Part shown: in pieces, positions 1,834 to 57,784 of the stretch | How the letters are laid out: each line of letters starts with the position of its first letter | Position numbering within the stretch: position 1 is the stretch's first letter | Assembly (NCBI GenBank): GCA_001600415.1 | Contig: BCJX01000022.1 | Coordinates: 55,900-119,899 of the forward strand | Direction of reading: 5' to 3' | DNA length: 64,000 nucleotides | Origin: Pascua guehoae | Lineage: Eukaryota > Basidiomycota > Tremellomycetes > Trichosporonales > Trichosporonaceae | Program-made: the position numbers and the translations under genes | Notes under the pieces: generated by a model | Database searches by the model: none | What the model was told of the DNA's origin: nothing | What the model saw: the letters and a program-made list of their open reading frames with translations, nothing else

Positions 1834-3444
1834 ATGTCCGCCGCTACCATCCAGAAGCCTGCTCCGTGAGTCGACACCACCGCTTCGAGAACACGACGGG
1901 GGCTGCGTGGGGCATGGGACATGATGCGTGCTGCGTGCTGCGTGCCGCATGCATAGGCTGCACGCATGGTTGGCAAAGGCAAAGGCAAAGGCTGCCAGCG
2001 TGTGCTGGCCACGCGTCACGCCGTCTTCCTCGCCTTCGCCGCTCTCCCACCCTCTCCTCTCTCTCCCCACCTCTATGTCCGACGCGCCATGATCCCTGCT
2101 ACACCCCGGTCACGCGTGTTTCGGCGCTCGATCAGCTCCTGCCCGCCAGTGGAGCACCCATACCCCGCCACCTCCGTCCCGCTCCTCCTTTGTCCTCTCT
2201 AGTTGTCCATCACTCGTCGACCATCGCCTCTCCCCGTCCTTTATGCCTCCCCCACCTTCCTCCCACCTCCTACTCCCCCCAGCCCCGCCCCCATCCCCGT
2301 CCCCCATCCCCCAGGCCGCGAAAATACCGTCCCAGCCCCCTAACCACGCAGCGTCTTCAAGGGCACCCTCGTCAAGGAGGGCGAGTTCTCCGAGATCTCC
2401 CTCAAGGACTACGAGGGCAAGTGGGTCGTGCTCTTCTTCTACCCCATGGATTATAGTAAGTTGTAGTCTCTTATAACCATGGACTCCCCCCGTTCCATCG
2501 GGTAGAAGAACAGGACACTTGGTTGTCGCTATTCCTCTACCCTGTGGACCGTCACGGGGGGCGTGCGGTTTTCAAAGGTGACTAGCGCTGACTCGCAGCC
2601 TGTACGTATCTCCCCGAATCTGGGCGCGAAAATGTTGGCGATTCGTCACGGCCGTGGTGCCGTGCTGAGGTGTGGTTGAGGACGAGGTGTGCGCGAGTGT
2701 GGCACTCGAGGTGGTGCCTGCTCGGGTTGTGGCACCCACCTACCCCACATTCCGCTAGTCTACCTGTACCCAACGCGGGATGGTGCTCGTGTCCTAGTGT
2801 TGGCGCAAGGACTTGTTCGGGGCGGGAAAGGACCTCTTGGGAGCACGAAAGGACCTGTTGGGTGACTGTCACCAGCATGGCTCACTGCGCTGCCCAGCAC
2901 TGTGGCGTCGGTATCCACATGTCTCCCCTCCCCCACCACATCCACCCTCGGGCCATTTCCTCTCCGTTCCCCCCCACGGCCCCCCACTAACACCCCAGTC
3001 GTCTGCCCCACTGAGATCCTCGCGTTCAACGCGGCTCTCCCCCAGTTCGCCGCCATTGGCGCCGAGGTGATTGGCGTCTCGACCGACTCCGAGTACACCC
3101 ACCTTGCCTGGTCGCAGACTCCCCGCAAGGAGGGCGGCCTCGGCCCCGACCTCAAGCTCGGTCTCCTTGCCGACCGCTCGCACGCCACGTCCAAGGCGTA
3201 CGGTGTTCTCCTCGAGGAGGAGGGCATTGCGCTCCGCGGCACCTTCTTCATCGACCCCAAGGGCACGCTCCGCGCCGCGCACGTGCACGACCTCCCTGTC
3301 GGCCGCAGCGTCGAGGAGACGATCCGCGTCATCAAGGCGTTCCAGTTTGTCGACGAGCACGGCGAGGTCTGCCCCGCCGGCTGGGAGGAGGGCAAGGACA
3401 CGATTGACACGGCCAACGCGTCCAAGTACTTTGAGAAGCAGTAA
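1834..3444 (+). CDS. TSA1: Typical 2-Cys peroxiredoxin (thioredoxin peroxidase)
   Basis: This enzyme reduces H2O2 and organic peroxides with thioredoxin. Proposed exons are 1834-1865, 2352-2455, 2599-2601 and 2999-3444 (585 nt, 194 aa). The 3-nt third exon restores the family motif DYTFVCPTE around the peroxidatic Cys; joining 2455 directly to 2999 gives DYIVCPTE and loses two residues. The resolving Cys lies in GEVCPAGW. Both GGLG and a C-terminal YF (KYFEK) are present; in this family they go with sensitivity to over-oxidation. Introns are 486, 143 and 397 nt and end with CTAACCACGCAG, CTGACTCGCAG and CTAACACCCCAG. The stop TAA overlaps a good splice donor (GTAAGC at 3441), so some transcripts may continue into the exon at 4104. 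The family call is very secure; the splice model is inferred. Confidence 0.93.
2599..2601 (+). other. TSA1: 3-nt microexon (CCT) of the peroxiredoxin gene
   Basis: CCT is flanked by a branch-site-like CTGAC plus acceptor (CTGACTCGCAG) on the left and a donor GTACGT on the right. Inserted between the exon ending GATTATA (2455) and the exon starting TCGTCTGCCC (2999), it gives codons for D-Y-T-F-V-C-P, the invariant peroxidatic-site motif. Both flanking splice signals match those of other introns in this window. Transcript evidence is lacking. Confidence 0.75.
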
Positions 3445-4103
3445 GCGTCTGTCGCGACCTTGTCCACAAAACACACCCATCCCGGGCAACGCCCGGACCT
3501 CCCCTATAGAGAGTAGAACGGTGAAGAAACGGACGCAGTGAATCAACACCACTCGAGGCAAGAGCAAGCATGGATTTGTTGTCGCCTGGAAAACACGCAT
3601 GTGTCAGCCCGCGGCGTCACTATGGCGAGCAGCGGCGTGCGCAAACTCATGTTGCAGTGGACACTGGCCAATGATGACACCCGTGCTGGCCAGCGGCCCG
3701 TGGCGCGGGTCGTGTGCAGTGCGCAGTCCGCAGCAGCGCGACTGGTCTTTTCCTTCTGCTTATCTCTCCTTTCCTTATCGCTCAGATCTCTCAGATCTCC
3801 CTCAGACCCTCTCTCCTCTCAGACTCTCTCTCAGACTCTTCCGCTCCCTCAGACTCTCTCTTATCAGCTCTCCTTCCCTGGACCCCGTCGCCCCATTCAA
3901 TCCCCGTATCCCTCATGAGCACTACGCTCCCGTGCCCATTTCCCGCCCGGTCGCGTCGCGTCCAGGTCATTGGGTCACACCACACCATCACGCCCCTCAC
4001 CACCCTCATCCCTCACACCAATCCCTCACCGCTTCACCCGTTCATCCCTTATCTGCCCCGACCCTACGCTCCATCCCCACTCACGACGCACGCTAACGCC
4101 CAG

Positions 4104-4176
4104 CGGCGACGACGGCAACAACAAGCGCCCCGCCGACGCCTCGCCCGCACAGCCCTCGAAGCGTGCGCGCGTCTAA
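4104..4176 (+). CDS. TSA1: Probable alternative last exon: basic NLS-like peroxiredoxin tail
   Basis: The exon starts right after CTAACGCCCAG and runs to TAA at 4176. In one frame it uses almost only C/G-ending codons and encodes GDDGNN, then KRPAD, then KRARV at the C-terminus, like a bipartite nuclear localisation signal. Its phase (two bases needed from upstream) fits the donor GTAAGC at 3441 inside the peroxiredoxin stop codon, giving ...KYFEKH-GDDGNN... Splicing the 663-nt intron 3441-4103 would therefore replace the last residue and stop with a 24-residue tail. It could instead belong to an unrelated gene, but no start or other compatible donor was found. Coding nature is fairly clear; the link to the peroxiredoxin is inference. 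Confidence 0.55.
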
Positions 4177-11004: not shown

Positions 11005-11389
11005 NNNNNNNNNNNNNNNNNNNNNNNNNNNNNNNNNNNNNNNNNNNNNNNNNNNNNNNNNNNNNNNNNNNNNNNNNNNNNNNNNNNNNNNNNNNNNNNN
11101 NNNNNNNNNNNNNNNNNNNNNNNNNNNNNNNNNNNNNNNNNNNNNNNNNNNNNNNNNNNNNNNNNNNNNNNNNNNNNNNNNNNNNNNNNNNNNNNNNNNN
11201 NNNNNNNNNNNNNNNNNNNNNNNNNNNNNNNNNNNNNNNNNNNNNNNNNNNNNNNNNNNNNNNNNNNNNNNNNNNNNNNNNNNNNNNNNNNNNNNNNNNN
11301 NNNNNNNNNNNNNNNNNNNNNNNNNNNNNNNNNNNNNNNNNNNNNNNNNNNNNNNNNNNNNNNNNNNNNNNNNNNNNNNNNNNNNNNNN
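11005..11389. other. Assembly gap (385 N)
   Basis: The run of N removes the start of GET1. In homologues the missing part codes for the N-terminal membrane segment and the first part of the coiled coil. Confidence 1.
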
Positions 11390-33488: not shown

Positions 33489-33821
33489 GGGAGCCTGTAA
33501 CGACCGTACCACTTTTTTCAGGTTTAACCGTACCAAACCACTGTGAAGCCATATTTCGCCATATTTCTCATGCATGGCTAGCTATTACAACTCTACAAGT
33601 CGCCCACACCAAGTTCCTTTATGGTTAGAGAGGTTAGGGGGTTAGAGAGGTTAGGGGTTTAGGTGGTTAGGGGGTTAGAAGGTTAGGGGGTTTGGTGGTT
33701 AGGGGATTAGGNGGTTAGGGGGGATATATTATCATCTGTTGCTTCTGTAAATGATTCGATTAGAAATATGGGTTTGGTACGGTTAAACCTGAAAAAAGTG
33801 GTACGGTCGTTACAGGCTCCC
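33489..33821. mobile_element. hAT-like MITE, 333 bp, with 51-bp perfect TIRs
   Basis: The terminal inverted repeats are 33489-33539 and 33771-33821, identical over 51 bases and beginning GGGAGCCTGTAACGACCG. An 8-bp target-site duplication CATCTTGC flanks the element (33481-33488 and 33822-33829), the size made by hAT transposases. No transposase frame is inside. Perfect TIRs and TSD point to a recent insertion. The element sits between the starts of the F-box/WD40 gene and the 3' end of the ferric reductase gene, with some intergenic DNA on either side. Confidence 0.9.
33623..33723. repeat. Telomere-like GGTTAGGGGG tandem array inside the MITE
   Basis: About ten units of GGTTAG followed by one to six G (GGTTAGGGGG, GGTTAGAGA, GGTTAGGGGATTAG) lie head to tail, with one N at 33712. 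Tremellomycete telomeres, for example in Cryptococcus, use TTAGGGGG-type repeats, so the array resembles degenerate telomeric DNA. Confidence 0.75.
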
Positions 33822-56288: not shown

Positions 56289-57784
56289 ACGGTCCAGTCG
56301 TTTTTGGACACGTGCAGTTAGTGAACGTTCCTCCCGGCCTGTTACACACAATACCATGCACGGCGTACAGTACAGCACTGCAGTTGGCGTTCACCTTGGT
56401 GCTTGAGGTCGGGGTAACAATCCCAGCTTGGTGCTGTCTGACCCGTACCGTTGTCGTCCCTCCGTTGCGGGGGTTACGCCACCCCCATCTCCTGCCCGTC
56501 TCTGTGCTGTAGCTGTTCGGTCTGAAAGTGATACAAGTCCCATACCTTTCAGCCGTCTTCATAGTCTCCTGGAGCCCAACACGCCCTTTGTGTCTCCATT
56601 CCCCGACCTGAAACCAAACTGACAACTAAACGAACAAGTGGACGAACAAGTACGAAGTATGTCGTGCTGTATTTCCTGTGGTACTCTGTCACATACGCTT
56701 ATGTATCCACCCGCCACGTCTCTGGCGTCACAGCCTACCTCCCATCCCCACCACCGTTTCCGCAAACTTCAACTCGTGCAGATACCCGCCGCCCTTTGTC
56801 CAACGTCATTTCACCCCTCAGGCATGGTCGCTTCCGAGCCCCGCCTAATCGACATGTCCTTGAACCCCAAGCACCTCGTATTCCGTCCCGAAGCACTCCC
56901 CAACCCCTCCTACTCGGTTCCATCGCGTCGAACGCACGGAGCGGAGCGAACCGGCGCACAGACACCCGCACGACCTGCTTGGAGGCGTGTCGTGCCTCGA
57001 CGTCGACGCCTTGAGCCTCTGTGGTGCTTGGCGCCGGCGCCCTTGGTTTTGGAGAGACGCACCTCAAAGGCCACAAGGGCCACAGAACGACAAGGTCGAC
57101 CACAACACGACACGACACTCGCACCGCCACACTCGCACCGCCGTACATCACCTGGGTGCGAGTTTTCAAGTGGGATTCGGACAACTCCCCTCGCACGCCG
57201 CACTCGGTTCCCAGACTGCAGGCGGCTTTGCCTGTGCCGGGTCGGTCACGGGTGCGAGGCATGCTAGACGTGCCGTAGATGGACAGTGTGCTCCTCGTCA
57301 CACTGAGAGCCTGGAAGCATGGATTCTTTTTCGGGTGCACCCTTCTTCTCCCAGATCTTGGCTCGTCGCGACGTACCCGGCCTCCATGTCAGCCCTAGGG
57401 TTCCCAAATCACGCACGGCTGGGCTCACGCCGGTCCTCTAGTCCAAAGGCCATGGATCGAGACGCTAGAGTATACTGGTGGCTTTTCGTGTCCCAGCCTT
57501 TACTACACACAAAGCCGGGGCCGCACATTGGCCGTACCAGGACCCCGCCTACATTGTACAGGCGAGCCCCGAAAGATCGTGACTGGCACGCTCCAGACTG
57601 GCACGCGTCCTCGCCTCACAATCTCACTTTCCTCGCACCTGCACAATTCCAGCGGGGTCTTGCCACACCAACCCTCGAAAGGGATTCTAGACTCCCATGC
57701 CAAGCCCCCCGGTATTCGATACACGTCCCGTTCTCACATCACGCACAAGACGGACGCGGCACCCCCCCGCTGTCCGCAAACGTC

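Follow-up and report, generated by a model that had tools for sequence, protein, structure and literature searches.

Gene structure and the encoded protein

The window analysed in this work is the whole stretch of 64,000 nucleotides from Pascua guehoae. The peroxiredoxin gene lies on its forward strand. The coding part of exon 1 (1834..1865) encodes MSAATIQKPAP and is followed by intron 1 (1866..2351), which is 486 nt long and runs from GTGAGT to CTAACCACGCAG. Exon 2 (2352..2455) ends in phase 1 with ...PMDY and one further A. Intron 2a (2456..2598) is 143 nt long, runs from GTAAGT to CTGACTCGCAG and for the most part forms an imperfect hairpin. A putative exon of three nucleotides, CCT (2599..2601), lies between CTGACTCGCAG and GTACGT. 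It would supply two bases of the Thr46 codon, completing ACC, and the first base of the Phe47 codon TTC. Intron 2b (2602..2998) is 397 nt long and runs from GTACGT to CTAACACCCCAG. Exon 3 (2999..3440) starts with TCGTCTGCCC, is read from (T)TC GTC TGC and holds the codon of the peroxidatic Cys49 at 3004. The GATTATA of exon 2 reaches 2455 directly before GTAAGT. The exon boundaries at 2455 and 2999 and the CCT at 2599-2601 are those proposed in the first-pass annotation, and they were found where it had placed them.

The introns end alike across the gene, where CTAACCACGCAG, CTAACACCCCAG and CTAACGCCCAG (the end of probable intron 3) resemble the CTGACTCGCAG that precedes CCT. The introns, of 486, 143, 397 and 663 nt, are called long here because 10 of the 20 intron-like matches in a crude consensus census of the window span only 40-49 nt. 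One of those 20 matches, at 143 nt, is intron 2a itself.

The end of the gene (3425-4176), judged from its letters, looks like a splice-or-stop switch. Probable intron 3 (3441..4103, forward strand) runs from GTAAGC to CTAACGCCCAG and its donor overlaps the TAA stop of the short form. With intron 3 retained, exon 3 extends to 3444 and the protein ends with ...YFEKQ (CAG TAA). Splicing of CA|GTAAGC (3440/3441) to 4104 adds probable exon 4 (4104..4176, forward strand), which encodes a basic, nuclear-signal-like tail ending in ...GDDGNNKRPADASPAQPSKRARV before the stop and gives a protein of 217 aa in total. The spliced tail resembles those in models from Vanrija, Apiotrichum and Cutaneotrichosporon, and the short form is the one annotated for the homologs P0003, P0004 and P0102. 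Elsewhere in the window, about 12 degenerate copies of the telomere-like GGTTAGGG lie at 33623-33722, internal to the contig. This array may represent an interstitial telomere or the trace of an old fusion of ends. The window also contains an assembly gap of 385 N at 11005-11389.

The gene with the CCT exon encodes a typical 2-Cys peroxiredoxin of the Tsa1/cTPxI type from a Tremellomycete-like fungus. The nearest proteins among the best 120 of 7990 matches are those of Vanrija albida (90%), Cryptotrichosporon argae (88%) and Papiliotrema laurentii (85%), followed by other Tremellomycetes. The predicted protein has the Pfam domains AhpC-TSA (PF00578, 133 bits), Redoxin and 1-cysPrx_C (PF10417, 43.5 bits), of which AhpC-TSA and 1-cysPrx_C together are those of a typical 2-Cys enzyme. 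Residues 4-193 align with the solved human peroxiredoxin-2, and Thr46 and Cys49 fall at the FTFVCP site. The active-site motif of typical 2-Cys peroxiredoxins (Prx1/Tsa1) is PxxxTxxC with the peroxidatic Cys, and these enzymes are also marked by a C-terminal resolving Cys and by GGLG and YF motifs. The predicted protein acquires the first motif (P42, T46, and C49) only with CCT included. It also has EVCP from residue 169 (Cys171), GGLG at 92 and YF at 190. The searches of the fungus's own genome covered the 33.6-Mb assembly of 28 contigs. The six-frame search, in which only the best candidates were scored, gave two matches within the peroxiredoxin gene and one weak match elsewhere (38%, E 0.001), and revealed no second typical 2-Cys copy.

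The active site among homologs and the effect of skipping

The homolog set consists of 175 different proteins, taken from the best 120 of 7990 matches, the best 120 of 7968 matches and all 51 matches of a search that was aimed at the skipped-type junction. The motif D[FW]TFVCPTE is present in 169 of the 175 homologs listed. The six exceptions are P0121-P0124, which begin downstream of the site, P0089, which is a read-through gene call, and P0151, which is a model without the stretch. The skipped-type IVCP is present in none of the 175 homologs listed and in none of the 51 matches of the targeted search. No Tyr occupies the position of Tyr45 in any of the 175, including the 169 that have the motif. 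The earlier description of DYTFVCP as exactly the family motif therefore has to be amended, because the family reads D-[FW]-T-F-V-C-P and no listed homolog places Tyr before the Thr.

Inclusion of CCT yields ...FFYPMDYTFVCPTE... and skipping yields ...FFYPMDYIVCPTE..., and the frame is kept in both. The skipped product had been given correctly as an in-frame DYIVCP, but it does not lose two residues, since Thr-Phe is replaced by Ile with a net loss of one. The resulting P-M-D-Y-I-V-C has no Thr46 and its Pro and Cys are one residue closer. Peroxidase function needs the PxxxTxxC residues, as is established in peroxiredoxin chemistry. The skipped form is predicted to be inactive because Thr46 of this motif is lost, and the enzyme without CCT is almost certainly dead, as far as its sequence tells. 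The first-pass annotation was thus on sound ground in supposing that skipping would disable the enzyme, with the Thr of PxxxTxxC lost and the Pro shifted relative to the Cys. Routine skipping would also be costly because no second typical 2-Cys copy was found. Other outcomes of splicing alter the protein further. Retention of intron 2a or of the whole interval stops translation three codons past Tyr45, and retention of intron 2b with CCT kept gives a long unrelated tail.

TFVCP is present in all Vanrija, Cryptotrichosporon, Apiotrichum and Cutaneotrichosporon models that were examined. Automatic gene predictors rarely place exons of 3 nt, yet these models contain TFVCP, which hints that the relatives may lack the microexon. 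The metagenome gene call P0089 reads ...ILTRQ|FVCPTE, which suggests an acceptor directly before TTC and a boundary one base from that of the Pascua guehoae gene. A scan of viral contigs gave no relative. The models P0125, P0127 and P0151 of other basidiomycetes lack parts of this region (about VVLLFYPM, or MDFTFV) and look as if small active-site exons had been overlooked.

Evidence for the CCT exon

Exon 2 ends with A and exon 3 opens with TC, so the conserved TF pair needs C-N-T from the sequence between them. Splice routes across the interval were enumerated from 82 GT/GC donors and 22 AG acceptors, with introns of at least 30 nt and with or without one internal exon. The enumeration covered GT/GC-AG sites. 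Exactly one enumerated route, through CCT at 2599-2601, restores PMD[YFW][TS][FWY]VCP. Direct joins and other microexons between exons 2 and 3 were rejected, as none of them restored the motif in the enumeration.

To estimate chance occurrence, 200,000 sequences were generated from the interval with a first-order Markov model. Of these, 12% contain AG-CNT-GT by itself and 0.3% contain YAG-CNT-GTRNGT. With a branch-site-like CTRAC at most 12 nt before it, the latter pattern occurs in a fraction of 5.5e-5. CCT has the properties by which microexons are recognised, namely an ultra-short internal position, its own acceptor and donor, and a conserved protein that needs it. Taken on the genomic sequence, its use as an exon can be regarded as nearly certain. 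The claim that CCT is real and completes the active site is strongly supported by the unique enumerated route and by the TFVCP of 169 of the 175 listed homologs.

Searches for similar exons across the genome, made with strict patterns and an imperfect control, showed no excess. The pattern for 3-nt exons gave two matches, one of them the peroxiredoxin gene, against two in the reversed-pattern control. A further strict pattern for tiny exons gave one match against one in its reversed control, and by reading this match lies within an ordinary longer exon. The pattern for exons of 0-30 nt gave 17 matches against 41 in the reversed control.

The hairpin of intron 2a and its inverted match to exon 2

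For the greater part, intron 2a closely matches its own reverse complement. Its local self-complementarity score is 82, which was reached by none of 2000 dinucleotide shuffles and by none of 6265 other 143-nt windows, of which the best scored 76. Those windows were taken in 10-base steps across the 64 kb, excluding those with N or within 143 nt of intron 2a. The other three introns reach 34-48 in their best 143-nt stretches. The stretch with the score of 76, the second most self-complementary one sampled, lies at about 57525-57680. The minimum free energy of intron 2a is -61.1 kcal/mol (z -4.43), and one of 200 shuffles was as stable or more. The stem region 2464-2590 has z -4.61 (0/200 shuffles as stable). 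The folds that include exon 2 have z -3.61 at 2400-2620 (0/200) and z -3.58 at 2420-2565 (2/200).

Read on the reverse strand, the core of the hairpin (2494..2516) is a copy of positions 2428-2450 near the end of exon 2, with 20 of 23 nucleotides identical. All three mismatches fall at third codon positions of exon 2. This inverted match was reached by none of 2000 shuffles under strict scoring and by two of 2000 under relaxed scoring. An inverted match of at least this score to the sequence upstream of the window was seen in 23 of the 6265 other windows. Both the hairpin tests and the exon-copy tests are post hoc, as they were run after the features had been noticed.

Part of the 3' arm of the hairpin (2512..2548, forward strand) also resembles positions 2414-2450 of exon 2 weakly in direct orientation (26/37). 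This resemblance is not significant, as 11 and 18 of 2000 shuffles reached it under two scorings and 449 of the 6265 windows reached its score; intron 3 gives 7/2000. The search of the own genome with intron 2a, in which only the best candidate region was scored, returned the intron itself and the end of exon 2 in inverse (E 7.8), and no other copy at E<=10. Intron 2a has the internal symmetry by which fungal introner-type elements are judged, and no target duplication is obvious by eye at its ends. At 2445-2482, base pairing is possible between CCATGGATTATAG of exon 2 and CTTATAACCATGG of intron 2a, with the GTAAGT donor at the base of the loop. This pairing alone, at -11 kcal/mol (z -1.42), is not significant, as 19 of 200 shuffles did as well.

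Predicted folding and the order of splicing

The isolated 33 nt around CCT are unstructured, as 195 of 200 shuffles fold equally well or better. In four longer folds, the hairpin core persists with a mean pairing of 0.86. The same folds pair the branch site of intron 2a with a mean probability of 0.80-0.94, the stretch of acceptor, CCT and donor with 0.65-0.67, and the 5' splice site with 0.37-0.46. The idea that the hairpin holds the junction open was dropped, since the longer folds pair the junction although the isolated one is unstructured. With the branch site predicted to be paired, a hairpin that only helps is disfavoured, and the pairing would instead hinder splicing. It is for this reason that our estimate for a hairpin aiding ordered splicing was lowered, and we now hold that role to be doubtful on the folding models.

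U1 and the 3' splice-site factors cannot occupy three nucleotides simultaneously, so introns 2a and 2b are probably removed successively. Intron 2a would be removed first, joining CCT to exon 2, and intron 2b would then be removed from GTACGT, much as in recursive splicing. This order is proposed because intron 2a is transcribed first and is much shorter than intron 2b. In recursive splicing, a long stretch is removed in successive steps and the ratchet points leave no exonic base. The likeness lies in the two successive steps, whereas the three bases of CCT are kept and needed. By looping out most of intron 2a, the hairpin may promote early removal of this intron. This is the weakest step of the proposal, and it is partly contradicted by the modelled pairing of the branch site. 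In plants, the introns that flank a microexon are spliced out consecutively, and the downstream one more often goes first (PMC8831610). By analogy, this tendency counts against a 2a-first order.

Comparison with known systems

The earlier remark that three bases are near the lower limit for splicing has to be corrected, as exons down to 1 bp have been reported in Cryptococcus neoformans, where they are hard for automatic annotation (PMC3990503), and Arabidopsis APC11 has a constitutive exon of a single nucleotide (PMC4674806). Before APC11, the smallest constitutive exon known was 6 nt and the smallest alternatively spliced exon was 3 nt (PMC4674806). Cryptococcus neoformans resembles the present case in being a Tremellomycete host with very small exons, and the accessible portion of that report mentions neither a peroxiredoxin microexon nor an adjoining hairpin intron (PMC3990503). 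The exon of APC11 is likewise ultra-short, but it belongs to a plant gene and is 1 nt long (PMC4674806). Microexons of 2-10 residues have been described in P450 genes of Phanerochaete (PMC1184071). Literature searches, to which most subscription journals were not open, gave no report on fungal 3-nt microexons, and none on a peroxiredoxin microexon or on the birth of a microexon by intron gain that concerned this gene or route. Microexons this small thus have precedent, and the upstream intron with its hairpin and exon copy is the new part.

Self-complementary introns that multiply have been described in Hypoxylaceae (PMC8469720). Those symmetrical (stw)introns are like intron 2a in being largely self-complementary and seamless in a coding exon. 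However, they form multi-copy families, whereas intron 2a was found in one copy and is related to the adjacent exon; they also have no exon between the two introns, whereas the Pascua guehoae gene has one of 3 nt (PMC8469720). The pair of introns studied here is not a stwintron, in which an internal intron lies within a splice element with no exonic base between, because CCT has to stay between both introns for the conserved protein to be made.

Alternative explanations and the origin of the exon

In the explanation that we prefer, with a probability of about 0.8 for the whole, a Tsa1-type gene normally includes CCT, its two introns are removed in order and intron 2a is a foldback copy. Its rivals differ first in the fate of CCT. 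If CCT were unused, with 2455 joined to 2999 or the gene decaying, skipping in frame and the unusual Tyr45 (0/169 motif-bearing homologs listed) would fit, but the remaining protein is intact and close to its relatives (90% to Vanrija albida) and skipping removes Thr46, which makes this reading hardly credible. The on/off switch proposed by the first-pass annotation would make CCT a cassette microexon whose skipping gives an inactive or chaperone-only peroxiredoxin under some condition. Skipping does preserve the frame and both outer splice sites look strong. In principle, inclusion could also be controlled through the pairing predicted for the branch site, acceptor, CCT and donor. A fungal precedent for a microexon switch is Xlr2 of Trichoderma (PMC11121469), which shares with the present case a coding microexon with functional consequence; that microexon is glucose-regulated, whereas no such regulation is attributed to the CCT exon. 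The switch is nevertheless improbable and unsupported, as the skipped junction is absent from all 51 targeted matches and no other typical 2-Cys copy was found as a backup. For the latter reason, constitutive inclusion, although read from sequence, is far likelier and can be held with good confidence.

The other rivals concern intron 2a. It may be a degenerate introner-like element, since inverted repeats are found inside fungal introners and related symmetrical introns, and these elements insert into exons without a seam. Its symmetry is like that of a Hypoxylon sister intron, whose 49-nt inverted repeat shows about 73.5% identity (PMC8469720), and the lack of an obvious target duplication, judged by eye, agrees with such an element. 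We consider this unlikely, as no second genomic copy was found (only the best candidate region was scored), the hairpin core resembles the adjacent exon 2, and the accessible part of a survey names Pezizomycotina as the fungal introner hosts (PMC9860276). A self-targeting hairpin is also conceivable on the modelled fold, where excised and debranched intron 2a would be diced in a mirtron-like manner and small RNAs matching exon 2 in sense or antisense would tune the peroxiredoxin mRNA. The long intronic hairpin does have an arm antisense to exon 2, the genome has Piwi, RNase III and RdRP domains, and Cryptococcus neoformans stands out among fungi for an unusually high frequency of intronic mi/milRNA loci (PMC9757828). 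The pairing with the exon is just 20/23, and we give this reading very little weight. Piwi-like domains in two places and RdRP domains in three places, on C2, C13, C3, C5 and C11 of G000, indicate that RNA interference genes are present.

In the preferred explanation, two adjacent introns split the active-site codons and leave CCT, which would normally be present in all functional mRNA. An older intron, today's intron 2b, would have interrupted the Phe codon (T|TC). The most likely origin of intron 2a is a local foldback copying (template switching) of exon 2, by which it would have been inserted 3 nt upstream of the older intron, so that CCT would be the stranded last bases of the former exon 2. 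The derivation of intron 2a from exon 2 is somewhat favoured by the sequence match. The unusual Tyr45, in the same exon end, may be a by-product of the copying event. A joint reading goes further, in which an intron born by foldback copying of its own exon created the microexon in one step, its hairpin shapes the order of removal and the sole typical 2-Cys peroxiredoxin found in the genome depends on it. We put this forward tentatively, and slightly less readily than before the branch site was predicted to be paired.

The hairpin origin of the flanking intron is a more interesting lead than the switch. Should the hairpin intron prove to be copied in inverse from the exon, it would show concretely, and in a way that can be dated, how a new intron and a microexon come about. 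Annotation easily overlooks ultra-short exons, and traces of how they originated are seldom seen; here a catalytic Thr depends on one. Automatic models of basidiomycete peroxiredoxins may drop active-site residues, as three listed models (P0125, P0127, and P0151) are without part of this stretch.
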